This document shows, in pieces, positions 7,408 to 41,100 of a stretch of DNA of 64,000 nt. Made by a program: the position numbers and the translations under genes. Origin of the DNA: Saccoglossus kowalevskii (Eukaryota > Hemichordata > Enteropneusta > Harrimaniidae); NCBI RefSeq assembly GCF_000003605.2, contig NW_003151770.1, positions 63,488-127,487 on the forward strand. The letters run 5' to 3'. The first letter of the stretch is position 1; the number at the start of each line of letters is the position of its first letter. Below the pieces are notes generated by a model. That model ran no database searches. It had not been told where the DNA came from and saw nothing but the letters and a program-made list of their open reading frames with translations.

Positions 7408-7866
7408 ATGGACTTCAACCAGGAAAAAGTTCAAAGTGACTTTATGCAGTATATTAGCTCTCATTACTATGACATAAATAAGTTGTGCGATATATGTGCA
7501 AAAATGTATCCCGAAATTATCACCAAGGAAGAAATAAAGTCAATAAAAGTGAGTATATTCAGTGTTTATTTAGGAATAGCATTTAATTTATACTATTCAT
7601 TAGTATAATATCTCAATTTTTACATATTTTAACATGTTTCATGGTTTTGAACAGCCCATAGTCTGACAATACAAATATAAAAACAATTACTTTTAAGCTG
7701 ATATATTATTTATACGTGTAATATGTGCAATATTTATTGTAACAGGGAAGACAAATACACCAACGTCCATGGTATATACTCAATCTGTTTAAGAAAACTT
7801 CGAATTGGTGTACGAAAATAGCAAATGTATTAAAAGAAATCAATGAAACGAATTCAGTGACCTCAG
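7408..7866 (+). CDS. Exons 1-2: CARD-like death-fold domain
   Basis: Exon 1 (7408-7548, 47 codons, phase 0 end) and exon 2 (7746-7866, phase 1 end) encode an all-helical segment of 87 residues. The pattern ITKEEIKSIK, followed by a spacer, ILNLFKKTSNW and IANVLKEI, matches the usual CARD order: helix 3-4 acidic 'xEEIxxI', a hydrophobic helix 4 and a tryptophan-led helix 5. The donor after ATAAAA is GTGAGT and the acceptor before GGAAGA is AACAG. It could instead be another death-fold class (DD, DED). No family-specific catalytic or binding residue settles this. Confidence 0.5.
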
Positions 7867-10800
7867 GTGAGTATGAAACACACTCTGTGATTTGTTGTTG
7901 TTCCAAAACATCGCTGCAATATTATACGCATATCCATCATGTATCAATTCCAATTATAATTATGTTTTTAGTTTATATACAACCAGCCACAGTTATGGAT
8001 TCAGAGTTTTCAATATTAGGTCAATGATAGGTTTTTGGAACCTTCTTAAATTTGATTGAAATATTATCGCACAAGGAATAAACGTTTTATTTTGTATATG
8101 GGAGATGTTTACCGCTTAAATCAGAAACACTAATTTAATACATTGAAGATTAATGTATGGTAAAGTCCATTTCCTAAAATTTATGAATATTATGAAGTTA
8201 TTACAAGACTACCTCAAAGTATGCACGAAGACAGTACAGCTGGAGCATCGACCGACGCGCATATACATCTTTTCCTTTCAAGGATACATCATGGGAATGC
8301 CGAAATCCAAAAAGTTTAGAACAGAATCAGCGAACTTCTTTGTGTGGGGTCCGGTAAAATGCCGATGACAGCCATGTTTGTTTTTATTATTAGAGGACGC
8401 TTACGCGCGTAAGCATTCCATACTTGGAATTTGTATTCCCTTATATGATAGGATGAAAATACCCCGTAAAATTATGGCACGCTGTAACTTGGCGTTACTG
8501 TGACAGATGTATAATAATACTTTATAAGGTGAAATTATGTTAATGTTACAGGTACTCTTATAAAAAAGGTGTTTGGGAAAGATGCAGAAAGAGTCCAAGG
8601 TGAGAATAGAGACTGAATTTCTTATTGATTGGATTTGAGATGTGACACTGGCATAATGTTGATGTTTCTACATAAAACATACAGTTAAAATTTAATTCAA
8701 ATAAAAAATCATTTCATATCACCTGTTCATGAGTTTCACACTAGGTGAAATATTTATTATTTATTGACATAATTCTTATTTTGTTTATATCAGGTCCATG
8801 TCACATTACAGTTGAATGGATTATAGCCTTGTCCAAAAACAGCCGTTATATCTGTTCGCATCTTTTCAAAATATACGAATAAGTGATAACGAATGTCGCT
8901 GATGTGAGATATTGTTTGAATGTTGTTTATATTTCACAGATTCTGCTGTTCATTTTAGGACTAAAAAGACCAAAAGCAAAGTAAATATTAAAGGTAAGAT
9001 AAGGCTAAAGTTGATTACAATGTTACATTGGATAATTCACATTGTGAAATTGCGTTCACTGGTGTCTAGGTACTGCTGTACGACGCAACTAATTAGAACG
9101 CGTTCAAGGCCAAGGCTATATGTTGGTGAGGTGAGGTGAGAGGTGAGAAGGTGAGAAGATCGGCATTGTGGTCAATGCAAATAGTGTCTTTATTTCATTG
9201 TTTACAGGTACTCAGAGAAATGGTGAAAGGTCAGAATGTGTGATGTTTACTGATGTAACGAAAAAACATTGTTTTTCATTTCGAATTTTTGCGTGTAATA
9301 TTTGTATCTGTAAACAATGGGTTTGTTTGAATTCGACAATGGCTTTAACGGCGAATAAAGCTATATTAAACTACGAGGTTGATGTTTCATTCGAGAAATG
9401 ATCACTGCACTGCAATGATCACTGAATAAAACACGCGGTCGGAGTGTTTGATTGATTTATTTTGATTATTTCTTCCCTGAAATGTATCACTACCGGCATT
9501 TATTTTGTTCTGCTGACTATGGTTTGGATGTAAACATTTGCAATGATACACTATGTGCAATTGTTTTCACTTCTTACAGGTATTACAGAACCATGCAAGC
9601 CATTGGAAGATACAGAGCGAGCTGAAGGTCTGAGTTTAGAATCCTTTGTTATATCTATTTGTAAATGTTAGTCAGTATTTAATTTGAAATGAAAGGTGTG
9701 ATTATCTCGTATTTACAGGTACCCAGAAACATGCAGAAAAGGTTGCAGGCCAAAATACAATTTCTTATATTGTTTTGTTGATAAATGTGTGACAATATAT
9801 TGTCATAGTGACGATCATAATGTACAATCCGAGGCCAGGATGACTGTGGATATTTCAATATTAGAGATGGAATGAAATTAACATGTAATCGTATTCATAT
9901 ATAGAATTGCAATTTAACTGATTGTATTTAAACTGCAATTAAATCTATGTATATGTATATATAGCATTGCAATTTAATTAAACTTCAATTAACTTATGAA
10001 AACACGCAAGTACTAGTACATCGTGTCTGCTTGATTAAGATATACTATTGCAACAATAGACATTATAAATTGTAATCAAATTGACAGGTACTGCTGTACC
10101 ACGCGAATCAATGGAAAATAAAAAAACAGTTGAAGGTAATAATGTATATTTATTATGCTGTAGTGTGGTGCTTACACAGTGATATTTATAATTCAATTAT
10201 TCTGTTGTACTACGATGTGTCTTTTTATACATATATGTTTATGTAAGTCATTGCAGTACAAATATTGCAAGGTCTGAGTTTAGATTTTTTGTTGTGGCGT
10301 GGTGCACGCTGTTTCTAAAATAGTGTTATACATAAAATAGTGTTATAAAAAAATGTACTTATTTCGTATTTACAGGTACTCAGAAACATGCAGAAAAGGT
10401 TGAAGGTTAGAAATACAATTTCTTTTGTTGTTTTGTTGATAAATGTGTGACAATATGTTGTCATAGTGACGATCATAATGTACAATCCGAGGCCAGGATG
10501 CCTGTGGATAATTCAATATTGGAGATATGTTAATGAGATGGAATTTAAATAACATTTAATCGTAATCATATATAGAATTGCAATTTAACTGATTTTAATT
10601 AAACTGAAATTAAATCACGCACGTGCGACAATACACGAAACAGATTGTGTTCAATTTTACAGACACTGCTGTACCACGCGAAGCATTGGAAAATAAAGAA
10701 CTAGTTGAAGGTAATAATATATATTTATTATGCTGTAGCGTGGTGCTTACACAATGACATTTATAGTTGAATTATTCTGTTGTACTACGATGTGTATTTT

Positions 10801-12714
10801 TTGCATATATGTTTATGTAAGTCATTGCTGTACAAATACTGTGCATGCAGAAAACGATGAACGTAAAAATCACGATTTCCCGTGTTCTTTTGTTGAATAA
10901 TTATGACAAATTACTGACATTACTATGATTGCAATGTACACAAATAATTCGGTCAGAATTAATTACTTGTATTTTTCTTCACAAAGGATATTATCACTTT
11001 TGTTTTACAGATACTGCTATACCAATACAGTCCCAGAAACACGCAGCAAATAGTAAGAAATTAGCCTTATTTTTATGTGACCATGCTTAAATTGTAATGT
11101 AGCAGACATAATTAAGTTTGTAATTAGTTTATGAATAATCTTGTTTCCCGACTGCACGTTAGCATCGCGTATACATCGACCACGTGTATATGCAGCACAT
11201 AATAAATCAGCTGGTCTCAACGTGTCATTGATGTTGTTGAGAAGGTTAATTAAATCAGTGAAGTGGATAAACAACAGAACGTGTATGTAGCAGAAATGGT
11301 TAGAATTACAGCCAGTGTATATGTCTAGGTAACGCAATGGATGACGGGAATTGTTGTGTGATACGCCCTCGCAACACCTCTTTACCCCGTTGGGTATACA
11401 TATTGTCTCCTATTGTAGTGCGGTTCACATATTCAGCCCACTTAGTCTGGAGATCACTACCAATATTCTGCAATATCAACTTTGTTTTATATATATTTAA
11501 GATTCAGGTATGTTTGAATACATAAAGAATGCATTCAAAGAACAGGCCCAGAATTTCGATGCAGTACACCAGAAGTTCGATGAAGTACAAAAGAATATTG
11601 ATACAGTACGACAAGAAATAAAAGGTGATTTGAAATCCATTAAAGAATCATTTCACAAAGATGTGAGCAGACTGGAAACAATGTTGGAGCAGAATATGTT
11701 GTCTGTGGAGAAACAATTTGCTGATTTCAAGAAGGGTAAGATGCTTTCCAGAAATCATTCTCGAATAAAAATATATTTAATTTTAGCTTTATGGGTTCCA
11801 TTCATGCATGAGTCGCAATATTGAAATCATCCAAAATTACTACATATAATTCAATAGGAAATCTGACAAATGTGTTTAAATTGCTATCACCATTAACCAA
11901 TCGAATTCAACCTTCGTTCAATGCAGATTTCAATTTAGCATGTTCAATAGACATGTGTGTTTTTACAGTTTATCTTAATTAATTTTTGCCAGATACTTCA
12001 CTGGGACAAGCCGAAATACAAGCTTGTGTTTCAGAAATGATGGAAAAATACGCACAACTGATAAAACAATTCGATAGTATAAAAGGAAGGATTGATGAAC
12101 TTGAAAAGGATCAGGGTTAGTGAATATTTATACAAATCACGTAAATTTCAGAGCTTAATTGCAATTTGTTTATAAAGTGGTTCTATCGGATACGTTAGTC
12201 AATTTATACTAGAGATGTTTATTGCATACAATCAAACATACTATCACGTGCATGGGTGGAAACAATGATACTACCAATGGCATTGTGGTCGATACAGTAA
12301 CTTCCACTAGGATACGTTAGTTATTCTAGTGTTTCTTTCAGCAGCTTCTGAAATTGATATAACCAAACAAATCGTTGCGCAGCTAAAAACCATAAATAAA
12401 AAACTAGAGAGTAAGGACGAACTATGCACGGAAATAGAAAAGCTGAGACAGAAAGTAGAAGAACTGCAGTTAGTAATTATGAATAACTGCAGTGAGTTGC
12501 ACAAACGTCTGGATACATTGACATTAGATGAAAAAGATGAAGGTAGGCTTCATTTTATGACATAACCAAACCAATTAATTATTATATCTACCCACTAAGC
12601 GTAACAAACTTGTTTGTGAAGTTATAAATAGACTGTTTTTTTCCAATTTAATTTGCAGCACCTCAGAGGGATTCTAAACCAATTCAGGAATCAGACATAA
12701 ACTTCAACACTTAA
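7408..12714 (+). CDS. CARD-like domain plus coiled-coil protein, multi-exon gene
   Basis: I assembled this gene from GT-AG borders and matching phases. Exons: 7408-7548, 7746-7866, 8552-8599, 8940-8993, 9580-9627, 10088-10135, 10376-10405, 10663-10710, 11011-11052, 11508-11735, 11993-12115, 12342-12542, 12659-12714. The sum is 1188 nt, 395 codons plus a TAA stop. The start is the first in-frame ATG (MDFNQEKV). Residues 1-87 look like a death-fold domain, most like a CARD. About 110 residues of low-complexity, charged linker follow from mini-exons. Then come about 200 residues of heptad-rich coiled coil and a short polar end (SDINFNT). There is no signal peptide or membrane segment, so it is probably cytosolic. 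By analogy with CARD-coiled-coil adaptors it may self-assemble in a signalling complex, but that is inference. The mini-exon set actually used is uncertain, since decayed or optional copies lie between them. Confidence 0.65.
8190..8530 (+). repeat. Dispersed repeat family B, copy lacking half of the hairpin
   Basis: It has only the left arm (ttattacaagactacctcaaagtatgcac) and then joins directly to the body at tatacatcttttcc. It lies in the intron before the first mini-exon of the CARD-like gene. Confidence 0.75.
8552..11052 (+). CDS. Mini-exon cluster of the CARD-like gene
   Basis: Seven short exons of 30 to 54 nt, all phase 1-1 and therefore skippable without frame loss: 8552-8599, 8940-8993, 9580-9627, 10088-10135, 10376-10405, 10663-10710, 11011-11052. 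They fall into related types. The 'TAVPRE..ENK' type is at 10088 and 10663. The 'TQKHAEKVE' type is at 10376, with a copy at 9719 whose donor reads GC-CAAA. The exon at 11011 joins both words (TAIPIQ then SQKHAA). Unusable copies are seen near 9071 (in-frame stop), 9207 (unclear donor), 10253-10271 and 10840. The introns around the copies are also alike, which shows segmental tandem duplication. Confidence 0.6.
11508..12714 (+). CDS. Coiled-coil and terminal exons of the CARD-like gene
   Basis: Exons 11508-11735 (76 codons), 11993-12115, 12342-12542 and 12659-12714 are all in phase 1, and the last ends in TAA. The first three are heptad-rich, with segments such as FDEVQKNIDTVRQEIKGDL, QLIKQFDSIKGRIDELEK and IEKLRQKVEELQLVI. 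They form an almost continuous coiled coil of about 180 residues, as expected for a dimer or trimer. The last exon is a short polar tail. Acceptors (TTCAG, GCCAG, TTTCAG, TGCAG) and donors (GGGTAAG, GGTTAG, GGTAGG) are all readable. Confidence 0.65.
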
Positions 12715-13391
12715 GTAATCACATGGAAAAGATGGACAGTATTATGGACAGAAAACAGTTCATAGACTTGAAATGAAGCGTCAAAAGTAAATGGACAACG
12801 ATAAATGTATGATTGGAAGTGCCAAGCCCAGCTTTGGTACACCCCCATGTAATCCTATTTCTCTCCATTGTTTTTGTTTTGGCATTTTTTTTTTAGAAAC
12901 CGTTGTATGTGATGATATCATTTTTTTTTATTGTTGGGAACCATTTTTAATTGCGATTGTTTGTAATGGAATGTGGATCAGACCTAAAGGCACTGGACAT
13001 TATTAGACATTAGTGGCAGTGTGTTGGCGTTTCTGAGATTAGTGATTTCAACATATTAAGAAATCGCCAGGTCAAGGCTTTTTATTTCATACATGCAATC
13101 AGGTTAGACTAATTCGCAACTAATATTGCCTCACAATGTATTGATCATTGTGTGTGAACTGTGTGATATATAAGTAGTGTTCTTGTTCAATTGCAGTTTT
13201 TACCCGCTCGTTTGGTATTTTTAAAAGTCGGCTTTGCATTCTGTGTGTTGTACGCTTTATATTGATCTAAATATCCTGTTATATAAATAATTGTAGTCAT
13301 TGCTTGATTGAGGCCTTCGTACTGAACGCGTTATATATTCTAATCAAAGAGGTCTTAGTTGTATAAAATAACTGTTGTATTGATAAATAAA
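12715..13391 (+). other. Probable 3' UTR of the CARD-like gene
   Basis: This is non-coding sequence after the TAA stop. The first clear AATAAA hexamer downstream is at 13386-13391, inside a gataaataaattg context. This is inferred from position and the signal only. Confidence 0.35.
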
Positions 13392-21669: not shown

Positions 21670-24034
21670 AAACTACATGTGTTCATATGACTTATGCTAT
21701 GGCAATTCAATACTACATGTGTTCATATATCTTATACTATGGTATTTCAATACTACATGTGTTCATATATCTTATACTATGGTATTTCAATACTACATGT
21801 GTTCATATATCTTATGCTATGGTAATTCAATACTACATGTGTTCATATGACTTATACTATGGTAATTCAATAATACATGTGTTCATATGACTTATGCTAT
21901 GGGAATTCAATACTACATGTGTTCATATATCTTATACTATGGTATTTCAATACTACATGTGTTCATATATATTATGCTATGGTAATTCAATACTACATGT
22001 GTTCATATGACTTATACTATGGTAATTCAATAATACATGTGTTCATATGACTTATGCTATGACAATTCAATACTACATGTGTTCATATGACTTATGCTAT
22101 GGCAATTCAATACTACACGTGTTCATATGACTTATGCAATGGCAATTCAATACTACATATGTTCATATGACTTATGCTATGACAATTCAATACTACATGT
22201 GTTCATATATCTTATGCTATGGCAATTCAATACTACACGTGTTCATATATCTTATGCTATGGCAATTCAATACTACATGTGTTCATATGACTTATGCTAT
22301 GGCAATTCAATACTACATGTATTCATATATCTTATGCTATGGCAATTCAATACTACATGTGTTCATATATCTTATGCTATGACAATTCAATACTACATGT
22401 GTTCATATGACTTATACTATGGTAATTCAATACTATGTGTGTTCATATGACTTATACTATGGTAATTCAATACTACATGTGTTCATATGACTTATGCTAT
22501 GGTAATTCAATACTACATGTGTTCATATGACTTATGCTATGGCAATTCAATACTACATGTGTTCATATATCTTATGCTATGGCAATTCAATACTACATGT
22601 GTTCATATATCTTATGCTATGACAATTCAATACTACATGTGTTCATATGACTTATACTATGGTAATTCAATATTATGTGTGTTCATATGACTTATACTAT
22701 GGTAATTCAATACTACATGTGTTCATATGACTTATGCTATGGTAATTCAATACTACATGTGTTCATGTGACTTATGCTATGGTAATTCAATACTACATGT
22801 GTTCATATGACTTATGATATGGCAATTCAATACTACATGTGTTCATATATCTTATGCTATGGCAATTCAATACTACATGTGTTCATATGACTTATANNNN
22901 NNNNNNNNNNNNNNNNNNNNNNNNNNNNNNNNNNNNNNNNNNNNNNNNNNNNNNNNNNNNNNNNNNNNNNNNNNNNNNNNNNNNNNNNNNNNNNNNNNNN
23001 NNNNNNNNNNNNNNNNNNNNNNNNNNNNNNNNNNNNNNNNNNNNNNNNNNNNNNNNNNNNNNNNNNNNNNNNNNNNNNNNNNNNNNNNNNNNNNNNNNNN
23101 NNNNNNNNNNNNNNNNNNNNNNNNNNNNNNNNNNNNNNNNNNNNNNNNNNNNNNNNNNNNNNNNNNNNNNNNNNNNNNNNNNNNNNNNNNNNNNNNNNNN
23201 NNNNNNNNNNNNNNNNNNNNNNNNNNNNNNNNNNNNNNNNNNNNNNNNNNNNNNNNNNNNNNNNNNNNNNNNNNNNNNNNNNNNNNNNNNNNNNNNNNNN
23301 NNNNNNNNNNNNNNNNNNNNNNNNNNNNNNNNNNNNNNNNNNNNNNNNNNNNNNNNNNNNNNNNNNNNNNNNNNNNNNNNNNNNNNNNNNNNNNNNNNNN
23401 NNNNNNNNNNNNNNNNNNNNNNNNNNNNNNNNNNNNNNNNNNNNNNNNNNNNNNNNNNNNNNNNNNNNNNNNNNNNNNNNNNNNNNNNNNNNNNNNNNNN
23501 NNNNNNNNNNNNNNNNNNNNNNNNNNNNNNNNNNNNNNNNNNNNNNNNNNNNNNNNNNNNNNNNNNNNNNNNNNNNNNNNNNNNNNNNNNNNNNNNNNNN
23601 NNNNNNNNNNNNNNNNNNNNNNNNNNNNNNNNNNNNNNNNNNNNNNNNNNNNNNNNNNNNNNNNNNNNNNNNNNNNNNNNNNNNNNNNNNNNNNNNNNNN
23701 NNNNNNNNNNNNNNNNNNNNNNNNNNNNNNNNNNNNNNNNNNNNNNNNNNNNNNNNNNNNNNNNNNNNNNNNNNNNNNNNNNNNNNNNNNNNNNNNNNNN
23801 NNNNNNNNNNNNNNNNNNNNNNNNNNNNNNNNNNNNNNNNNNNNNNNNNNNNNNNNNNNNNNNNNNNNNNNNNNNNNNNNNNNNNNNNGTATGACTTATG
23901 CTATGGCAATTCAATACTACATGTGTTCATATATCTTATGCTATGGCAATTCAATACTACATGTGTTCATTTGACTTATGCTATGGCAATTCAATACTAC
24001 ATGTGTTCATATGACTTATGCTATGGTAATTCAA
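21670..24034. repeat. 40-bp minisatellite, about 59 units if the gap is repeat
   Basis: The unit is exactly 40 bp, of the form ctacatgtgttcatat - gacttatgctatgg - caattcaata. Variants sit at fixed places: tga or tat after 'tcata', gctat or actat, and ggcaat, ggtaat, gacaat or ggtatt. Marked variants recur at fixed distances. The taatacatgt form at 21872 and 22032 is 160 bp apart. The tactatgtgt/tattatgtgt form at 22431 and 22671 is 240 bp apart. These show duplication of multi-unit blocks. Because 40 is not a multiple of three, every forward frame cycles through a 40-residue peptide, which explains the long repetitive ORFs here. They are not genes. Confidence 0.95.
22897..23888. other. Assembly gap (992 N)
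   Basis: A run of N lies wholly inside the 40-bp minisatellite, so the true unit number is unknown. Confidence 0.99.
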
Positions 24035-24859
24035 TATGCAACGAAATTTGTATTGTTACACATGTACCGTGACTATATGATTCGTGCTCGTACAATATAG
24101 ATATGTGACTAGAAATAAGATGGGTTGAATATATCGATATAATCCAACTTGATATGACACATATGACTAGGATAATTACCACCGTGTAATTTCACTGGTA
24201 TATGCATTCAGTGCAAAGCTGATCCAAAGACGAAACGTATCATAAATATATGAGCTGTTTCACCTTGGGTGTCATTTTCATCTGGTCTTGAGAATGAGTA
24301 TTTGAGATTTGACATGATTGGGGAACAGTTATTCAAACGTAGTGTTTGAGTGAATTATCTTTTTATTTTTTACTTGCAGTACCTATTCATTATTTTGTCA
24401 TGACCAGAAGTATAAGCATGCCATTTTTTTTACATTTTTAAAGTTGTTTTCTTTGTTTGTTAATTGAATAACGTTTGTACTAGTTAAATATAAAACAGAA
24501 CATAATTCTTGCCCCACGAGTTATAATGTTAAATATATTTGATGTAGTTTTCTAATACTTTTTAAATTTCTTTTTATTATAATCAAATCTTACCGCTATC
24601 GTAACTATAATGTGCATTGTCAGGTAGTAGACCACGTAGTAGTAATATAACTATTTTCAAAATACTGGGGAATCCGAAGTCAGCAAAAGGAAACTTATAT
24701 CGTAATATAGTTTATTTAAAATCACTGATATTAATTTATTAATTATTGTATTCAGCAATAATGTCTCACAAAACGCATATAAATTGTACAATATTTAAAA
24801 ATATGTCATTAAACAGTGATATGCAATAAATAATCTCGGCAGATTCATTATATACATAA

Positions 24860-26142: not shown

Positions 26143-29100
26143 CTAGTAATAAAGAACATAAATCTGTTTGTATACAACGATAGATTACTGCATATTTATT
26201 TACATTTCAAAACATTTCTAAGACAAGTAAAAGTAGATTGTAAATCGGAACGGTAAGACGTGTCAGTAGAAACATATTTTTGCTCTATAAGCAGAATAAT
26301 AATTGAAAGTTCCAGCATCTTTTCTGTCATTCAAAATCAATCATCAATAACAACTATCTCTTACGTACAATATCCAGGGCAACGTAGTGTAAGCAATGTT
26401 ATAGTTATAGTGAGTGATTCAAATGTACATGTCGAAAAAAATCCGGACACACACACCAAAACAAGACAAGAGCAGAGGCCTTTGAATAGTGATACAAAAC
26501 GTAAATATTTATACGTGAAGTCTTGCTAGTAAGAAAGTACCCGAAAGAATAACTCCATTAATGATGTGGGTGTGACAGTGGAAGTAAAAATAACATTACT
26601 CCATCTAGTGCTGTGGGCATGACAGTGCCAGGAAGAATAACCCCATTAGTGTTATAGGTGTGACAGTGCCAGTAAAAATAACATTACTCCATCTAGTGCT
26701 GTGGGCATGACAGTACAGGTTAGAATAACTCCATTAGTCTTGTAGGTGTTATAGTGCAAGTAAGAATAACTCCATTAGTGTTGTATGTGTGACAGTGCCA
26801 GAAAGAATAACCCCATTAGTGTTGTAGGTGTGACAGTGCAAGTAAGAATAACTCCATTAGGGTTATAGGTGTGACAGTTCCAGTGAGAATAACTCCATTA
26901 GTGTTGTGGTTGTGACAGTGCAAGTAAGAATAACCTCATTAGTGTTGTAGGTGTGACAGTGCCAGCAAGAATAACTCCATTAGTGTTGTAGGTGTGACAG
27001 TGCCAGTAAGAATAACCCCACTAGTGTTGTAGGTGTGACGGTGCAAGTAAGAATAACTCCATTAGTGTTGTAGGTGTGACAGTGCCAGTAAGAATAACTC
27101 TATTAGTGTTGTAGGTGTGACAGTGCAAGTAAGAATAACTTCATTAGTGTTGTAGGTGTGACAGTGCCAGTAAGAATAACTCCATTAGTGTTGTAGGTGT
27201 GACAGTGCCAGTAAGAATAACTCCATTAGCGTTGTAGGTGTGACAGTGCCTGTAAGAATAACTCCAGTAGTGTTGTAGGTGTGACAGTGCAAGTAAGAAT
27301 AACTCCAGTAGTGTTTGTAGGTGTGACAGTGCAAGTAAGAATAACTCCATTAGTGATTGTAGGTGTGACAGTGCCAGTAAGAATAACTCCAGTAGTGTTG
27401 TAGGTGTGACAGTGCAAGTAAAAATAACTCCATTAGTGTTGTAGGCGTTACAGTGCCAGTAAAAATGACTCCACTAGTGTTAGAGGTGTGACAGTGCAAG
27501 TAAGAATAACTCCATTAGTGATTGTAGGTGTGACAGTGCCAGTAAGAATAACTCCAGTAGTGTTGTAGGTGTGACACTGCAAGTAAGAATAACTCCAGTA
27601 GTGTTGTAGGTGTGACAGTGCAAGTAAGAATAACTCCATTAGTGTTGTAGGTGTGACAGTGCCAGTAAGAATAACTCCACTAGTGTTATAGGTGTGACAG
27701 TGCCAGTAAGAATAACTCCACTAGTGTTGTAGATGTGATAGTGCCAGTAAGAATAACTCCATTAGTGTTGTATGGATGACAGTGCAAGTAAGAATAACTC
27801 CATTAGTGTTGTAGGTGTGACAGTGCAAGTAAGAATAACTTCATTAGTGTTGTAGGTGTGACAGTGCAAGTAAGAATAACTCCATTAGTGATTGTGGGTA
27901 AGACAGTGCCAGTAAGAATAACTCCACTAGTGTTGTAGATGTGACAGTGCCAGTAAGAATAACTCCATTAGTGTTGTATGGATGACAGTGCAAGTAAGAA
28001 TAACTCCATTAGTGTTGTAGTTGTGACAGTGCAAGTAAGAATAACTCCATTAGTGTTGTAGGTGTGACAGTGCAAGTAAGAAAAACTCCATTAGTGTTGT
28101 AGTTGTGACAGTGCAAGTAAGAATAACTCCATTAGTGTTGTAGGTGTGACAATGCAAGTAAGAATAACTCCATTAGTGTTGTAAGTGTGACGGTGCCAAT
28201 AAGAATAACTTCATTAGTGTTGTAGGTGTGACAGTGCAAGTAAGAATAACTCCATTAGTGTTATAGCTGTGACAGTGCAAGTAAGAATAACTCCATTTGT
28301 GATTGTGGGTAAGACAGTGTAAGTAAGAATAACTCCATTAGTGTTGTAAGTGTGACGGTGCCAGTAAGAATAACTCCATTAGTGTTGTAGGTGTGACAGT
28401 GCAAGTAAAAATAACTCCATTAGTGTTGTAGGCGTTACAGTGACAGTAAGAATGACTCCACTAATGTTATAGGTGTGACAGTGCAAGTAAGTATAACTCC
28501 ATTAGTGATTGTGGGTGTGACAGTGCCAGTAAGAATAACTCCATTAGTGTTGTAGGTGTGACAGTGCCAGTAAGAATAACTCCATTAGTGTTGTAGGTGT
28601 GACAGTGCAAGTAAGAATAACTCCATTAGTGTTGTAGGCGTTACAGTGCCAGTAAGAATGACTCCACTAATGTTATAGGTGTGACAGTGCAAGTAAGTAT
28701 AACTCCATTAGTGATTGTGGGTGTGACAGTGCCAGTAAGAATAACTCCATTAGTGTTGTAGGTGTGACAGTGCCAGTAAGAATAACTCCATTAGTGTTGT
28801 AGGTGTGACAGTGCAAGTAAGAATAACTCCATTAGTGTTGTAGGCGTTACAGTGCCAGTAAGAATGACTCCACTAGTGTTATAGGTGTGACAGTGCAAGT
28901 AAAAATAACTCCATTAGTGATTGTGGGTGTGACGGTGCCAGTAAGAATAACTCCATTAGTGTTGTAGGTGTGACAGTGCCAGTAAGAATAACTCCATTAG
29001 TGTTGTAGGTGTGACAGTGCAAGTAAGAATAACTCGACTAGTGTTGTAGGTGTGACAGTGCAAGTATGAATAACTTCATTAGTGTTGTAGGTGTGACAGT

Positions 29101-32100
29101 GCCAGTAAGAATAACTCCATTAGTGTTGTAGGTGTGACAGTGCAAGTAAGAATAACTCGACTAGTGTTGTAGGTGTGACAGTGCAAGTAAGAATAACTCG
29201 ACTAGTGTTGTAGGTGTGACAGTCCAAGTATGAATAAATCCATTAGTGTTGTAGGTGTGACAGTGCAAGTAAAAGTAACTCCATTAGTGTTGTAGGTGTG
29301 ACAGTGCCAGTAAGAATAACTCCATTACTGTTGTAGGTGTGACTGTGTAAGTAAGAATAAATCCATTAGTAATTGTGGGTAAGACAGTGCAAGTAAGAAT
29401 AACTCCGTTAGTGTTGTAAGTGTGACGGTGCCAGTAAGAATAACTCCATTAGTGTTGTAGGTGTGACTATGTAAGTAAAGATAACTCCATTAATGATTGT
29501 GGGTAAGACAGTGCCAGTAAGAATAACTTCATTAGTGTCGTATGTATGACAGTGCCAGTAAGAATAACTCCATTAGTGTCGTATGTATGACAGTGCCAGT
29601 AAGAATAACTCCATTACTGTTGTAGGTGTGACTGTGTAAGTAAGAATAACTCCATTAGTGATTGTGGGTAAGACAGTGCCAGTAAGAATAACTCCATTAA
29701 TGTCGTATGTATGACAGTGCCAGTAAGAATAACTCCATTAGTGTTGTATGTATGGCAGTGTCAGTAAGAATAACTCCATTAGTGTTGTAGGTGTGACAGT
29801 GCCTGTAAGAATAACTCCAGTAGTGTTGTAGGTGTGACAGTGCAAGTAAGAATAACTCCATTAGTGATTGTAGGTGTGACAGTGCCAGTAAGAATAACTC
29901 CAGTAGTGTTGTAGGTGTGACAGTGCAAGTAAAAATAACTCCATTAGTGTTGTAGGCGTTACAGTGCCAGTAAGAATGACTCTACTAGTGTTATAGGTGT
30001 GACAGTGCAAGTAAGAATAACTCCATTAGTGATTGTAGGTGTGACAGTGCAAGTAAGAATAACTCCATTAGTGATTGTGGGTAAGACACTGCCAGTAAGA
30101 ATAACTCCACTAGTGTTGTAGATGTGACAGTGCCAGTAAGAATAACTCCATTAGTGTTGTATGGATGACAGTGCAAGTAAGAATAACTCCATTAGTGTTG
30201 TAGGTGTGACAGTGCAAGTAAGAATAACTCCATTAGTGTTGTAGGTGTGACAGTGCAAGTAAGAATAACTCCATTAGTGATTGAGGGTAAGACAGTGCCA
30301 GTAAGAATAACTCCACTAGTGTTGTAGGTGTGACAGTGCCAGTAAGAATAACTCCATTAGTGTTGTATGGATGACAGTGCAAGTAAGAATAACTCCATTA
30401 GTGTTGTAGTTGTGACAGTGCAAGTAAGAATAACTCCATTAGTGTTGTAGGTGTGACAGTGCAAGTAAGAATAACTCCATTAGTGTTGTAGTTGTGACAG
30501 TGCAAGTAAGAATAACTCCATTAGTGTTGTAGGTGTGACAGTGCCAGTAAGAATAACTCCATTAGTGTTATAGCTGTGACAGTGCAAGTAAGAATAACTC
30601 CATTTGTGATTGTGGGTAAGACAGTGTAAGTAAGAATAACTCCATTAGTGTTGTAAGTGTGACGGTGCCAGTAAGAATAACTCCATTAGTGTTGTAGGTG
30701 TGACAGTGCAAGTAAAAATAACTCCATTAGTGTTGTAGGCATTACAGTGCCAGTAAGAATGACTCCCCTAGTGTTATAGGTGTGACAGTGCAAGTAAGAA
30801 TAACTCCATTAGTGATTGTGGGTGTGACGGTGCCAGTAAGAATAACTCCATTAGTGTTGTAGGTGTGACAGTGCCAGTAAGAATAACTCCATTAGTGTTG
30901 TAGGTGTGACAGTGCAAGTAAGAATAACTCGACTAGTGTTGTAGGTGTGACAGTGCAAGTATGAATAACTTCATTAGTGTTGTAGGTGTGACAGTGCAAG
31001 TAAGAATAACTCCATTAGTGTTGTAGGTGTGACAGTGCAAGTAAGAATAACTCCAGTAGTGTTGTAGGTGTGACAGTGCAAGTAAAAGTAACTCCATTAG
31101 TGTTGTAGGTGTGACAGTGCCAGTAAGAATAACTCCATTACTGTTATAGGTGTGACTGTGTAAGTAAGAATAACTCCATTAGTAATTGTGGGTAAGACAG
31201 TGCAAGTAAGAATAACTCCAGTAGTGTTGTAGGTGTGACAGTGCAAGTAAAAATAACTCCATTAGTGTTGTAGGCGTTACAGTGCCAGTAAGAATAACTC
31301 CACTAGTATTATAGGTGTGACAGTGCAAGTAAGAATAACTCCATTAGTGATTGTAGGTGTGACAGTGCCAGTAAGAATAACTCCAGAAGTGTTGTAGGTG
31401 TGACACTGCAAGTAAGAATAACTCCATTAGTGTTGTAAGTGTGACGGTGCCAATAAGAATAACTCCATTAGTGTTGTAGGTGTGACAGTGCAAGTAAGAA
31501 TAACTCCATTAGTGTTATAGCTGTGACAATGCAAGTAAGAATAACTTCATTTGTGATTGTGGGTAAGACAGTGTAAGTAAGAATAACTCCATTAGTGTTG
31601 TAAGAGTGACGGTGCCAGTAAGAATAACTCCATTAGTGTTGTAGGTGTGACTATGTAAGTAAGGATAACTCCATTAATGATTGTGGGTAAGACAGTGCCA
31701 GTAAGAATAACTTCATTAGTTTCGTATGTATGACAGTGCCAGTAAGAATAACTCCATTAGTGTCGTATGTATGACAGTGCCAGTAAGAATAACTCCATTA
31801 CTGTTGTAGGTGTGACTGTGTAAGTAAAAATAACTCCATTAGTGATTGTGGGTAAGACAGTGCCAGTAAGAATAACTCCATTAATGTCGTATGTATGACA
31901 GTGCCAGTAAGAATACCTCCATTAGTGTTGTGGGTGTGACGGTGCCAGTATGAATAACTCCACTAGTGTTGTAGGTGTGACGGTGCCAGTAAGAATAACT
32001 CCATTGGTGTTGTATGTGTGACAGTGCAAGTAAGAATAACTCCATTAGTGTTGTAGGTGTGACAGTGCCAGTAAGAATAACTCCATTAGTGTTGTAGGTG

Positions 32101-35100
32101 TGACGGTGCCAGTAAGAATAACTCCATTAGTGTTGTAGGTGTGACAGTGCAAGTATAAATAACTTCATTAGTTTTGTAGGTGTGACAGTGCCAGTAAGAA
32201 TAACTCCATTAGTGTTGTAGGTGTGACAGTGCAAGTAAGAATAACTCGACTAGTGTTGTAGGTGTGACAGTGCAAGTATGAATAACTCCATTAGTGTTGT
32301 AGGTGTGACAGTGCAAGTAAGAATAACCCGACTAGTGTTGTAAGTGTGACGGTGCCAGTAAGAATAACTCCATTAGTGTTGTAAGTGTGACGGTGCCAGT
32401 AAGAATAACTCCATTAGTGTTGTAGGTGTGACAGTGCAAGTATGAATAACTTCATTAGTGTTGTAGGTGTGACAGTGCCAGTAAGAATAACTCCATTAGT
32501 GTTGTAGGTGTGACAGTGCAAGTAAGAATAACTCGACTAGTGTTGTAGGTGTGACAGTGCAAGTATGAATAACTCCATTAGTGTTGTAGGTGTGACAGTG
32601 CAAGTAAGAATAACTCGACTAGTGTTGTAGGTGTGACAGTGCAAATATGAATAACTTCATTAGTGTTGTAGGTGTGACAGTGCAAGTAAGAATAACTCCA
32701 TTAGTGTTGTAGGTGTGACAGTGCCAGTAAGAATAACTCCATTGGTGTTGTAGTTGTGACAGTGCAAGTAAGCATAACTCCATTAGTGTTGTAGGTGTGA
32801 CAGTGCAAGTATGAATAACTCCATTAGTGCTGTGAGTGTGGCGGTTGATATAGTGGCAGAGGAATCCGTTTCTAATGTGTTTTTTACAGAATTGATGATT
32901 AAATTGTTTTGATGTATTTACCCGTGACAGTTCTTTTTTAAATGCTCGATTTTGTACTTCAGCTCTGAAAAGACGTTCGCGGAAATCCTGCCTTTCACTG
33001 CATAGGAATCTTCGAGTTCTACCTTTGACCTCAAGGCCCGTTGACAAGGTAACATGGTCTCTGTCTTTACCGCCCGTTCTTTTCATTGCATAGATCTGTA
33101 TGTAGGAGGTTGGAAGATATAATTATGTTGCGAGTATAAAAATGTTAAACATGTCTAGATATACACTAGTGATTTTATTATCCATTTAACTGATGACTGA
33201 TTGCTATATGTTGATTCACACTGACCATGGATGATTTTTATGTATCTGGTAATATGTGACGTCCATCTTGTTATTGTTATCGCAGGCAAATAGATAGACG
33301 TTTCCGTAATATACGAAACGTGTTGTAGTGATGTGAACAATGGCGAGACGCTTTGCCGTGTAGTCGTGAGTTAGAATCCCATTATGAGTGTTCGTAATGT
33401 GTCTGTAATTTATATTCATTGTTATATGTTTCCACAATAAACATTGCGATGCATATTGTACTCGTCCTTGTCTCCTAGTATATATGTGTGCATCATGTTG
33501 TTTTAGCGACATTTGATGACGTATTCGGTTTAGGCAGTAAACACGCGCACATAACTCCTAGAGGTTTGAACGCAAATACTATCACTGGCAGGGACAATAG
33601 TTTTTCATAAATGTGTAGGTGTTGCATAATCAAGGCTTATCACTTATAATACAAATGAACAATTGATGATCGTACCTTTGGTAGAAATAATAAACATAAT
33701 GTGTTTGTTGTTGATATTAAGATAAACGTGGAGATGACTAAGAAGGTTGTAGTGACTTGTTGACCTGTGCCGATCACATTCGAGATAATGACCGTGATAA
33801 TGCTCATTAGCATAACATTGTAAACACTCATCCCGATATATTGGGAGTCATTCAAAGCTTCAATTTTCACTTTTCTTGTTTCCCAAGCAAGGAATGCCCC
33901 AAATAACAGAAGTAATCCTTTGTAGGCGTATAGTATTCCCAGCCATATGTCCATGCGATTGCAAGTGCACTGTTCAATAATTGGAATGTAGAGGATATCG
34001 TCTTCGTCTCGAGTCTGTGGACGAGTGAAAACAACGTGTTACGTCCAAGAATTGCTAACTGGTGGTTTGCTTAGAGCAGACACCGTAGTTGTCGTGTGAT
34101 ATATAGGGAAGATATTGATGGGGAAAGAACCTCAGAAAATCACATCTAATAGGAATGTTTGGACAATCAGACATACATGTAAACTATAATTTGTACTTGT
34201 AAATTACTGTTAAAACACAATATTTTCGTTGAAATCATTGTTTCAGAAACCTACCGTTGATGGCAGTATTTGTTCTTTCATATGTAGGGGATCCATACAA
34301 ATCCAAATAACGAGTACAATCGTATCGAAGACGAACAGGCACGTGACCATAAGAAATAAACGAGACTCTTGTAGCATCTGCAATATTCAAAAACAACATC
34401 AGACCCAATGTGAATGTGCTGCCCCGAACAGGGATATATTATCGGTGCATCGTTTATCAGAGGAGATCAACAAATTGTTAGTGTTAAAATTATGGTTGCT
34501 GAGGTGTGATGGACGCCTTTCAGTAAAGTCACAAACTGGCATTCATTCCCATTTTTCAAGTTTGGCGGAGAAAATAGTAAAACGTGTGTTGGGAGATGGG
34601 TCACTTACCTTTGTTCGAAGGACGCCGCTGGCGGCACGTGTAAATATATGGTAAACACGATATGTTTTGATAAATAACGAGCCAAATGCCAGTGAAAATC
34701 CAGCAGCTAATAAGAACGCTCGAACCTAGGGAATAAATACGAAATGTTTTTTTTATTGTGCAAGCATATAAAAGATTCGGAAATGTGGTTGTATTACATG
34801 CGCTCCGCAGTCGACGAAATGCGTACAATCTGATGCGAGGAAAAAAAGGCGCTGTACGGCGATTGGGATTTAATGTATATGTGTACTGTGCTATTGCCAA
34901 TACTGGTAGTTCATTTCATTTGTACTAGTACCCGTATGTAAGCGACCCGGAAATTGACGACTTACCGAACAAAGTACTGTGAGTATCGTGGTATTCTTCA
35001 CAATCGTAGAGTTCAGTCCCAACAAAATAAGACATAGATACACTAAAATACTCCCGATTATCACAAGATTATTCAAATTAGGACTAGATAGTTTGATGAA

Positions 35101-38100
35101 TCTGAAAATATAGACAAGTGTTTGTTTGTTTGGTTGTTTGTTTGTTTGTTTTCGGTTACTCATAATCTCAATAAAATAATGACTTGTAAAAAAATACCGG
35201 AATCTGTCATCAAATTCTTATTATTATGTGTGGCCACAGAATGTTTATCATGAATAATCTGGTACGAATTTGACGCATGCCAGACGTGTAGGTAATGTGC
35301 CTATGTTGCGCCCTCTTACGGCGGTTTCAAATCGCTGATGAACGTAGATGAATACTTACTTGGTGTTTCTGTATCTAAGATTGAACAACAGGAACAATAT
35401 GGAAATGAGTACGCCCCCTATCGACATGAGTGTAATGCAGGTGAATGCGATGCCATCTATATGAACTATCTCCTCGATCACCAACAGTCGGTCACGTGGT
35501 ACTTTTCCATCTAAATGAGAGAGTACGTGTTTTTTTCATTACTGGTAAATGATTTGAAAAATTAGGAATCGAATATTTTGACTGATTCAAGGTCAAATAT
35601 TGCCAGTCGACATACCTGCATTATCGTACACAAAATCACCCGGCGGCTATTTTCATTCAGTTGTACAGAAATATTTTTCGACATATATCTATTTTGTGAA
35701 ATCTCACAACACATGAACAGTTATTCTGACCACATATACCGGTAAAGCCGTACTGAGTCTCTTTCCCACCCGGTTTCAACTTTACAAAGGCATTTATACG
35801 AGACATGTTGTATGAGCTTCGTTGTATCTTACCTTGCCAAAGAATTGGAACGCAGTCTGTCGCGTTGAAATCCAAATATTCTGTCAAAGGGTTGTAAATG
35901 GCGATTCTCTTCATTTTACCGTCTGCAAACAAAATATCTTCATTTATATTTAGCTGCACAAACTGTAATACGTCATGAGATAGTACGATCATGATAATGG
36001 CGTATGAGTATTGAATGGTACGGCAATCAGTAAGTAATCGGTTTACAGGTATATTTATTGCGTTTCAAGACCTCTAGCCCAAATTCAAAACACAATTAAT
36101 AACATGAACACGTTAAAAATTTGGTTCGATTTTTACGTTACGCGATATCTCACATGTATGGCATAGCTCCATGGATAAATAAAACAACGTTCCTCAAAAC
36201 TGTCTTCCGTATCATAAAACCAGTAGATAACAACAGCCAAGGGAATTTGCAAATATTACGTTGAATAAAAAGAAGAGGGATTAATTATCGGCATCACTAA
36301 ACAGAATGTGATATTCAACCTCTCTAAGTATAGTAGACCGGTCGTCAAGGCAATACAGAGCAATAAAGAGCATAGGAAACACGCCAAGCTTTTAATTATC
36401 TTTAAATCACAAGTCGGAGATAAAATTATTTACAGGTTTAAGTGTGCTCTCAAAGTCGGCGTAAGAGCGTATGGCTTTGCAAGAAAGGCAATACGACGGC
36501 GTAGTTGGACGTTACTTTCAAATGCGCCACGCAAATATGTGCTGCATGACATCATGTTATGACAATTTACCTTGGTTTTGGTCAAAGACGGTGATACTTT
36601 CTCTGTCTGCTCCATTGAACGTTATGTGTCCCTGTAAAACAGAGACAATTGCATGATTCCTAGCCCCATCACGGTGGTTTGAGTTCTAGAACTAAATATA
36701 TGTCGTTAAAGTCTTTTTCGCATATTTTAGACATCAACATTCTTATCAAACTCTCCAATCAGGATTTAAAACATTCAATGAACCAAAACACCACGATTTA
36801 ACGTGTAGATGCAATGAGAGACGTTGGTTATAACAACTTACCGAAATGCCAACAAAACTTAGATGCGACAGAATGCTTTTAATTTTGTCTCGGAGATAAC
36901 TGTTACGGTACTGAGCTTGCTCCAGAGAGCTCGTTGTTCTATTCACTTTAGTCACGTTCTCCTCGGACAGGGTTTTCATGATTAATCCAATGGCCCAAAC
37001 TGCGTCGTATGTTTGCGGAGCGTATGTCGTTAAGCCTTCGCCATGTTCAATTAACAACTCCTCGAATTGATTCGGTGTCTGCGGAAGTAAAATAAAACAA
37101 AATTATTAGAGGTTTAGCAGACCCAAATTATAATTCTCTACAAGTTACGCAGTATGATTTGGATTTTGAGTACACAACAGCACATTTTTTTACGCTTTGT
37201 TAAACGTCACAAGGCACCCCACATCAAACGCGACGCGAAAAGACGACAGCGCCGCCTTATGAATTAACACCATTTATCGCTGTTCAATTTTTCCTTCCAT
37301 TAAAAGTACATATTTGGCAATACTTCAATTTGCAGTTTAATATATACATACATGTATATAGCTATAATGTAAACTCCAAGTGCAGTGAAAGATGTCTCTT
37401 TGGCAATGACAGAACTGCGCATGTTCCTAACTCACCAAACCAGATACCGTTGTACGGTTCTGTATATCTCGATTCAAAGATTCCACCGCTATGTAACCAT
37501 TCAGAGCGTCCTGTAATTCTTCCACAGTGCAGTCCGTGTCATTGTCTGCCATCCACCAATCAGACTGGTACCAACCCACCAGTATCCATATGTATTTACC
37601 GCCATACATCCCACGTTTGTAAGCCTGTACGTAAACAAACATAATATCGGTCGTATTTTCTATTAAAGCATTTTGGATCGTTAGTTTCTCAAAAATGCAT
37701 AGGCTCGATGGTTAATTACGTGATTTTTATCAAAAAAGAATGCCGAATTTGGTCAAATTCAACGAATTGATTCAACCCTACGATTCGTTTGGTTGGAAAA
37801 ATTTGTGATTTTGTCGCTGTTTTGTAAGAATCTGCATTTTGCCTTTCATGTTAACCTGTATTTTTATATTAGGCCGTTATTCAAGATGGCTGCCCAATAT
37901 AGTAACAATAGTATTATATTAAAACGTGTAAGCCAGATGACTGTGCATATGCTGTATTGCCGTGTAATGTCCTTCTTATCGATGGCATGATCTGACGCGA
38001 CAAGAAACATTCAGGGATAATTTACCAACAAAATTACATCTTCGTTTCCACAACGGCATCTTACCTCACAGAAAACACGCCTTGCTTCTTTTTCGAAGAA

Positions 38101-41100
38101 GTTTCCAATGATGACTCTTGCGTCGGCCTCCTGTGTAAAAGACACAAATTGTCATTCCAGCTTAGCAGCCAATCAGCGACGGCCTTACAGTGTACAGTCA
38201 GATGACAATTTCGGTTTCAAATACCCCAGGAAAGTGTTCTATGTTCTTTGTGTAATTAGGTGTTCGTATGCAAGGGATTTTTCCACACAAAAACGACGAA
38301 TTCGATCGAATTTTGTTATCGGTTGGCTCAATATAACCCCAACGGATCTCATTTTTGTGAAAGATTGGTATTTTTGTCCAGATTTGTAGGAATCTGCAAA
38401 ACGCGTTTCACAACGTGTCTCTTATTTAGTTTTATGCTGCATTCAAGATGGCGGCCCCATATAGTAAATATCGTATTTATTTTATTATCACGTGTGCGCC
38501 AGCTGACTGTGGTCATACACTGGATTCACATCGCAAATGTTGGTGGCAGTATTGTAATGCAATCACTGACTGAGTACACTATTCAACCGCAGCCAGTATT
38601 CCACCCGTCTAATAAAAAGTAATATTATTATCACACTGATTAAAGCGGTTCAACCGATTACTCTGTGTCCACCTCAAATGTTTTCTTTACGACGAACATG
38701 CGAATTCGTGGGATTCGGATCACGCGATCAAGCCTTTCGTCACCAAGGCAACATTATTATGAAGTGTCATTCTCCTCAATCAACTAAGGGCGAATTTTCT
38801 ACTTGCTTAAGTATCGTTCTATCCTGATATGATGTGGGTAATAATAAACAGTGGCAATGATGGCTTGGAATAATGAGATGTCGTACCTCGTAACACGCTC
38901 GGTTAACTCATGTACACGATCGTTTCACGTGACTCTATGGAACCAGTAGTTTTTCTGAAACACTCGGTGGCATTCAGACTTCTTTTTAAATGTTTAGTTA
39001 ATTCATTTTGTAATTTGTTCAATCTTATGACACCATAGTAATTTGAAAGTATATCACATTTGTAGCTATTAGTAATACAGTAATAGTAATACAGATATAC
39101 ATCGTTTCTCTAAATATTATGACCTCCGCTCACTAACATGAGCGTTTTTATTTAATAGTGTTATATTTAAATATATATTAAAAACTTTAGTTAATGAGGT
39201 CGACGCAATTAGAAAAATTATAATCCCTTTGACATAAAACTAATATATTACACATTACACAAGACGATAATATGAGGTTATTACGAGGATACCTCAAAGT
39301 ATGCACGAAGAAAGTACAGCGGGAGTATCGACCTCCGCGCAGCGGAGGATCGATGCGACGGCGTACTGTCTGAGTGGTTACTTTGAGGTATCCTCGCAAT
39401 AACCTTACTCTTATACATCTTTTCCCTCCAAGGATACACCATGGGAATGACGAAATACCAAAAGTTTAGAACAGAATCAGCGAACGTCTTTGTGTTGAGT
39501 CCGGTCAAACCCTGTTGTTTGTTTTTATTATTAGAGGGCGCTTACGCGCGTAATCATTCCATATTTGGAATTCACATTTCCTTATATGGTAGGATGAAAA
39601 TACCCCCTAAAATATTGAAAAATTACGACGCGCTGTTATGGCGTTACGGTGACAGATGTATAGTATTTAATTATATTAAACAGTAGAAACAACTCTAACT
39701 AATAAATCAAAAGACCTTAGACAAATGGCCGTTGAAATCTCGTTGAGCGAGAGAGAGCGACGATACTCGTAGTTGTCCGTTAAATAGTGTTCCATTCTCG
39801 TTGTCATTGCGTTCAGCGTTCAAAATATTCCGACTAAATAGATAAAAAGAACAGTAGATGTGATGACGGAGACTTTATCGTATATGTGAGTGTTATTTAA
39901 GTGTGCTCAGCTGAAACAGCTATGTTTCCGATGTTGAATCATTGATGCCATATGCTTGTCGCATTGCGCTGCAGCTCATTATTTTTTTCTGTAAGATCAA
40001 CCCTCACAGTTGTCGTACCGTGTAGTCAATGTTAGGCGACATGTACAACACAGTTTTCTCGGGTATGGAATGACTCACAAAGGACGCCCAATTTCACGGC
40101 CATGCAACAAGACATGTTTCATTATCACAGACGTGCATAGTATCACAAGACAAGCGCACGAATTTGTGTTATTAACAATTTATTAACCAAATTATTTTGG
40201 TCACATGATATTATAACGTGCATTAAATCAATATTTAAACAATTGATTTGCTAAACATAAAAATGATCGTACCACCCGAATACATATCTTGCGCATTGTG
40301 GTACGAATAACAAAGGGACAACTACGGATCTCAGGGAAATCCTAATATAAACTGGTAAGATAGATGATAAAGCACCCAATGGCTAAACATAACGTATCGT
40401 AAACGTGTGTAACTGTCATATCACTTGTGAACATTGCAGTTACGAAAACTATAGTATCCTGTATTATTCATCATTTTCTCGAGAAAAAAAATGCAAAATG
40501 ATCTATCATATTTGGCAAGAACAGAATTTGCATTTGCCGAGCCTCGCCGAATACTAGGAATAACCTATATTTTGCCAGTCAATGTGAAATGGGTATCATG
40601 TTCTCAGGTTGTAATAACAGTACGGATACGATAGTTCGATACGTACGGTTGAAGCGTCACAATTACCACGCAGCGTGCGTTTGAATCTCGTATAAACCAC
40701 AGTCAGAAACTAAATATAAACAAGCAATGTTATTACATGCGTTGTATAGGTCACGTGGGACCCATACCGAACACGACGCGCAACGACTAGTGTGGCGCTC
40801 TTACAATATATTGGTCCGTCCCTCTGCTGCATTATAATGGTTCATGAACTTGCACTTTCAAAGCTTCACAGTGGATACAGCTGTGTAAACCTTGCCAATC
40901 CCTCCACATTGAATGCTACGCTGGTTTGTTATATTGACAATTTATTTTAATTATTTGTATCGGGGAATCAGTGCAATTATTTGTTATACTCCATTTAACC
41001 AATGTGCATATACATGATGTAATGGGTTAAATGACGATAGTGAGACCAATAATAATAATTATAATAATAATTTTGGTGCAACCAAATATTTATCGCTTCC

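Follow-up and report, generated by a model that had tools for sequence, protein, structure and literature searches.

Short exons that change in number by duplication are best known from titin, where the PEVK region is coded by an array of short exons that is described as coding for a spring or spacer and as having grown and shrunk through exon-block duplication (PMC6469411, PMC12241362). In these accounts, total length is argued to dominate the evolution of the PEVK-C part, and alternative inclusion of exons alters this length (PMC6469411, PMC12241362); there are about a hundred PEVK exons, with 113 annotated in human and 99 in mouse (PMC6469411). The micro-exon genes (MEGs) of Schistosoma are reported to have about 80% of their coding sequence in symmetric exons of 6-36 bp (PMC5825161), their products are described as almost always secreted or membrane-anchored, and exon duplication is reported for them too (PMC5825161, PMC4350168). 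The substitution events by tandem exon duplication that are described for human genes are mostly ancient swaps of one exon copy for another (PMC9741552). Here we describe a gene of the hemichordate Saccoglossus kowalevskii that carries a row of short, frame-neutral exons (mini-exons) between an N-terminal domain and a C-terminal coiled coil. It lies on the plus strand of a 64,000-nucleotide stretch of DNA (the window; C4187:63488-127487), and all searches of the organism's own genome covered the 572-Mb assembly of 4830 contigs. We regard the array, with a probability of about 0.7, as a drifting linker spacer that was built by repeated tandem duplication of exon-intron cassettes and whose length outweighs its sequence.

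The coding region of the gene extends from the ATG at 7408 through the TAA that ends at 12714. We infer that this ATG is the start codon; the frame is open upstream to 7345 and has no ATG there. Between the two exons of the N-terminal domain and the coiled coil there are seven usable mini-exons of 48, 54, 48, 48, 30, 48 and 42 nucleotides (nt), as the initial annotation had proposed from the letters alone: all seven have a YAG acceptor, a GT donor, a length divisible by three and phase 1-1. Phase 1-1 is found in all 10 exons from M1 through E14 and the symmetry thus characterises the 3' part of the gene as a whole and is not confined to the mini-exons. With all seven mini-exons included, the coding sequence has 1188 nt (395 residues) and the frame is free of stop codons from E1 to E15. 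If stops occurred as often as in nearby introns, the probability of a stop-free run would be about 2.5e-6 for 203 codons, roughly what the coil part spans, and about 0.004 for 87 codons (E1 and E2). A match to a polyA signal is found at 13386, beyond E15. The N-terminus of the encoded protein is MDFNQEKVQSDFM.

The likeness to titin PEVK lies in an array of short exons that changes by duplication and, provided that the exons are included in the linker as we presume, codes for a spacer. The differences are in scale and composition: there are seven exons in a protein of 395 residues and not in a giant muscle protein, and the linker has a PEVK ratio of 43/106 = 0.41, below the minimum of 0.54 given for titin PEVK exons in the account cited (PMC6469411). 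With the Schistosoma genes, as far as they are described there, the locus shares short symmetric exons in a row, exon duplication and the potential for skipping without loss of frame; unlike in MEGs, the exons have 30-54 nt, only one of the seven is 36 nt or shorter, and together they make up 318 of 1188 coding nt (27%); on both exon size and coding share the gene falls outside the MEG class. The human events resemble the locus in that homologous adjacent exons arose by intragenic tandem duplication (PMC9741552), but here the copies follow one another in series, some of them are recent, and one transcript could include them all, unlike the swaps that this account reports.

Including decayed relatives, the array has 11 exon-like copies. 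The interiors of ten of them (10844 was omitted; the first 5 and last 4 nt were trimmed) were compared with shuffles in 45 pairs, uncorrected: 20 pairs had p < 0.05 and the other 25 were above. A further exon comparison used control pools of 73-87 segments and had a p floor of about 0.006. In the exon comparisons and the alignment the decayed A copy was taken as 9070-9111, its true end being 9108. The proposed sharing of sequence by type, with a longer type A and a shorter type B, holds for the A-A and B-B pairs, but the significant pairs also cross the types (M1-M7 0.0005, M4-B9719 0.011, M4-M7 0.016, M7-M9 0.02), and A and B seem to be a single family that occurs in a long and a short form. 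A multiple alignment of the ten copies aligns B with the 3'-terminal 30 nt of A; together with the similarity across types this suggests that B is most simply an A exon minus 18 nt (six codons), and M1 would then be a 48-nt exon with a B-like end. M9 carries marks of both types, as initially annotated: its 5' half agrees with A at 11 of 12 positions (p 0.0014), the 3' half with B at 16 of 18 (p 0.0002, the lowest value that 5000 shuffles allow). Either a fusion or a long form with both parts retained would account for this. With a profile built from the four A copies and their flanks, the members reach E 2.5e-12 or better; the next matches in the 64 kb, 11002-11024 (0.1) and 10367-10410 (0.25), are other members of the array, indicating that the profile is specific. 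With a profile of M1 and three of the B copies, the members reach 5.2e-10 or better, and 9571-9633 (M4) comes next at 0.3. For both profiles the members are the training set, and the scores show specificity and not independent discovery.

When the region 8400-11500 was compared with itself by BLAST, off-diagonal matches were found down to E 1.8e-112, as expected from the annotated duplications: 9702-10267 matches 10359-10841 (E 1.8e-112), 9625-9945 matches 10269-10616 (E 2.0e-86), 10387-10453 matches 10844-10909 (E 1.1e-7), 9560-9629 matches 10644-10712 (E 1.3e-6), and two further matches have E values of 1.6e-5 and 5.4e-5. There is a single recent cassette duplication, with 9625-10267 as the first and 10269-10841 as the second copy, plus traces of older ones. 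Adjacent exons are homologous beyond chance and the flanking intron was copied too (26 differences at 327 sites), as in intragenic tandem exon duplication. Several details of the initial description change: intron was indeed copied together with exons, but the match that follows 10088 and 10663 extends for about 131 nt (to 10267 and 10841) and not for several hundred, the one that follows 9719 and 10376 is present but extends for about 197 nt before a gap of about 100 nt, and while the unit of about 0.6 kb stands, both intron matches belong to one unit and hence to one recent duplication. The left edge of the duplication lies inside the last bases of M4 and its right edge adjoins the acceptor-less B relic at 10844, which indicates the previous order A4-B-A-(B relic)-hybrid; an older duplication probably created the edge of the 10844 relic.

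Identity between the two copies is 84-96% per stretch of 50 columns over most of 9710-9945 and 10096-10245. It is uneven: 9625-9701 and 10049-10087, segments that were picked post hoc, differ at 33 of 114 sites, and the conserved intron blocks at 26 of 327 (p 1e-7). Candidate causes are patchy gene conversion, unequal ages and locally faster change. Copy 2 has no counterpart to some 100 nt in copy 1 (9946 to about 10048), which hold an extra unit of an A+T-rich intronic repeat, of which copy 1 has two units (9897-9994) and copy 2 has one (10568-10605). The repeat (within 9887-9974) also matches contigs C763 and C3810. Separately, the intron upstream of M1 (8400-8516) is 80% identical to 39541-39665, 31 kb away (E 5e-27), and is thus a repeat with two or more occurrences in the window.

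Four of the 11 exon-like copies look broken (9070, 9208, 9719 and 10844), in agreement with the at least four decayed relatives first noticed, with 9208 and 9719 only probably decayed. The 9208 copy has frame-neutral alternative ends at 9222 or 9237 with other donors; it is likely, not certainly, dead. GC donors serve a minority of introns, and because they are sometimes used the copy at 9719 is only probably dead, though the sequence after its GC donor fits poorly. Its twin at 10376 and the 10844 relic both have GT at this position, and the GC therefore most likely arose after the recent duplication. The 10844 relic continues for about 50-60 nt as sequence that resembles the B intron.

The coiled coil downstream of the array was correctly recognised: helical hydrophobic periodicity is significant in E12 (p 0.0005) and E13 (p 0.0035) and reaches only 0.0525 in E14. 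E12 has a 21-nt (seven-codon) tandem repeat with 3.2 copies at 11550-11617, such that coil heptads are repeated at the DNA level. At the start of E14, a tandem acceptor (cag then CAG, 12342-12344) could add or remove one codon in frame. A Pfam search with the coil part, the query carrying one extra G at the E12/E13 joint, found 57 families at E <=1; all 25 listed were below the cut-off, with a best value of 1.4e-5, and look like generic coiled-coil similarity. E12-E14 were also considered as duplicates of each other; a comparison of the three sequences gave only matches of 12-14 residues (best E 0.007), taken as coiled-coil similarity. In the 106 residues of the linker no helical hydrophobic periodicity was detected (p 0.30); 58% of the residues are DEKRNQST and 21% are ILMVFYWC.

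The N-terminal domain had been called CARD-like, and this finds no backing. Pfam CARD (PF00619) had no match in E1 and E2 (E to 1) or in E1 to M9 (E to 10), and among the 13 CARD-profile matches in the assembly at E 1e-3 or better (22 candidates scored) none is on C4187, in a search whose sensitivity is lowered by the intron of the domain. A profile of four of these 13 CARDs, aligned with E1 and E2 by hhalign, gave P 0.097 over 20 columns (coil control: P 0.32). The hydrophobic spacing, which we take to be reminiscent of CARDs of the MAVS/RIG-I type, is a lead only. Against Pfam to E 1, the 87 N-terminal residues had just a sub-threshold match to DUF771 (0.25). Tax1-binding protein 1, the best of three PDB matches (E to 10), had an E value of 0.18 and was not accepted as a relative. 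In the own genome, searches with the N-terminal domain and with the coil found this locus only, the next E values being 1.91 (3 candidates scored) and 0.74 (11 candidates scored), respectively. The whole gene had no match in a phage collection and the N-terminal domain none among viral contigs, neither set being meant to hold animal genomes.

On this evidence, the gene, found once in the assembly by these searches, would join an N-terminal domain of 87 residues to a C-terminal coiled coil through a linker coded by mini-exons. Most of the phase 1-1 mini-exons probably share a single ancestral mini-exon, which was copied in tandem again and again together with its intron. Lengths that are multiples of three and equal phases at both ends mean that gain, loss or skipping of a copy keeps the frame, and the array can thus drift: copies would be born by duplication, some would die by mutations of splice sites or by stop codons, and one may have turned into a hybrid. 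The 106 encoded residues would be a flexible polar spacer whose length counts more than its sequence. We infer that splicing includes these exons, that the linker has no ordered structure and that length is the feature used. The older pairs M4/M6 and M4/M8 point in this direction: their exons are still similar (67 and 69%, z 6.5 and 8.5), the acceptor region (the last 20 nt of the intron) is also kept (z 3.9 and 6.8) and the 100 nt upstream of it are slightly similar (z 3.8 and 2.3), but the 80 nt of intron downstream are not above shuffles (z -0.6 and -1.1). M4, M6 and M8 have stayed at 48 nt without an indel, and none of the four A and B exon pairs has one, when 2.9 or 4.1 are expected for 25 substitutions. 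This suits a loosely constrained spacer that keeps frame and length while its residues drift; it equally allows partial non-use.

Several observations weigh against the spacer. In the recent pair, the 9 differences at 78 exon sites show no better conservation than the 26 at 327 sites of the intron blocks (p 0.37). M6 and M8 differ by six non-synonymous and one synonymous change, B9719 and M7 by one of each, and the four exon pairs gave no evidence of purifying selection on the amino-acid sequence: three lack a sign of constraint at the protein level, judged by the proportions of non-synonymous and synonymous differences (pN/pS 0.16/0.09, with 0.34/0.32 for M4 and M6 and 0.30/0.36 for M4 and M8), and the value of the fourth (0.04/0.16) rests on two changes. 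With exons no better conserved than introns and little sign of constraint on the protein, the copied exons may simply be neutral and unused. The depletion of indels is weak and suggestive only (P 0.065 or 0.023; Fisher 0.24 or 0.10), M4 and M9 have weak donors (6 of 9 consensus matches each), and M2 belongs to the family marginally, being the weakest relative and significant with M6 and M8 only (uncorrected, 45 pairs).

Three other explanations were weighed. The array may be mostly a relic, with some mini-exons used (M1, M2 and M9, for example) and the A and B copies within 9500-10850 carried along as decaying passengers of intron duplication; four broken copies of 11 and a recent pair in which exons diverge like introns, with six of seven changes between M6 and M8 non-synonymous, are what this predicts. 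We still find it rather unlikely, given that the older A exons hold length, frame and similarity when their downstream introns do not, and that M4, M6, M7 and M8 retain open frames and GT-AG sites. An extension of the spacer reading, proposed in the initial annotation, is somewhat easier to entertain, though doubtful: alternative inclusion would tune the linker between 0 and 106 residues and so determine how far apart the N-terminal domain and the coil lie. All seven mini-exons are frame-neutral, as this would need, and donor strengths of 6 to 8 of 9 consensus matches are compatible with partial inclusion, but decaying exons would show weak donors just as well. It is very improbable that a transposon or dispersed repeat gave rise to the mini-exons through several exonisations of its pieces. 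The part of the duplicated intron that repeats on C763 and C3810 (within 9887-9974) might suggest this, but that match excludes the exons; a pattern for the start of the A exons occurs at two sites in the gene and one elsewhere (reversed control: one), and no further copies of exons turned up in the genome with a 601-base query that reaches from the end of M4 through B9719 to M6. These searches for genome copies speak for type A, not for type B, M1 and M2. Returning to the spacer reading, its boldest form is rather unlikely: an actively turning-over length ruler from which splicing could select, with birth, death (a GT to GC donor, a stop, a lost acceptor) and fusion seen as intermediates within one gene, and a linker length that both evolves and is regulated by splicing.

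Table 1. Exons, exon-like copies and duplicated cassettes of the gene (positions in the window).
Feature	Position	Strand	Details
E1, coding exon with ATG	7408..7548	+	47 codons, phase 0-0; donor AAA|gtgagt
E2	7746..7866	+	121 nt, phase 0-1; final part of the 87-residue N-terminal domain
M1	8552..8599	+	48 nt, 3' half B-like; interior vs 10376 p 0.0005
M2	8940..8993	+	54 nt, weakly A-like; interior vs M6 p 0.0145, vs M8 p 0.008
Decayed A-type mini-exon	9070..9108	+	39 nt; in-frame TAA, GC donor; head matches 10086-10104 (94.7% of 19 nt)
B-type mini-exon, probably decayed	9208..9229	+	22 nt to the homologous donor; frame broken; 9179-9228 vs 10348-10396, 78%
M4, A-type	9580..9627	+	48 nt; weak donor AAG|gtctga; matches 10644-10712 (E 1.3e-6)
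Copy 1 of recent tandem duplication	9625..10267	+	B9719 and M6 with introns
B9719, B-type mini-exon	9719..9748	+	GC donor CAG|gccaaa; twin 10376 has GT
M6, A-type	10088..10135	+	48 nt
Copy 2 of recent tandem duplication	10269..10841	+	M7 and M8 with introns
M7, B-type	10376..10405	+	30 nt
M8, A-type	10663..10710	+	48 nt
Decayed B-type relative	10844..10862	+	no acceptor; adjoins the right edge of the recent duplication; 10387-10453 vs 10844-10909, 76%
M9	11011..11052	+	42 nt; A-like start and B-like end (p 0.0014 and 0.0002 vs shuffles)
E12, first coiled-coil exon	11508..11735	+	228 nt, phase 1-1
E13, coiled-coil exon	11993..12115	+	123 nt, phase 1-1
E14, probable coiled-coil exon	12342..12542	+	201 nt, phase 1-1
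E15, last exon	12659..12714	+	TAA stop

Elsewhere in the window there are two tracts of tandem repeats, one at 21672-24036 with a unit of 40 nt, interrupted by undetermined bases, and one at 26545-32840 with a unit of 41 nt and about 153 copies over 6.3 kb. On the minus strand, a frame at 33643-34038 matches class C G-protein-coupled receptors (7tm_3, E 2e-26), and one at 36749-37102 has a sub-threshold match to ANF_receptor (0.0048).

The locus is a real and clear instance of intragenic tandem exon duplication, ordinary in kind and unusually readable as a snapshot. The principle is already established by the PEVK exons of titin and, for short symmetric exons, by the schistosome genes. What the S. 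kowalevskii gene offers is a compact case of frame-neutral mini-exons that could let the length of a linker change harmlessly, with several stages of turnover within 2.5 kb, and this makes it useful for asking whether it is the length or the sequence of a linker that is selected.

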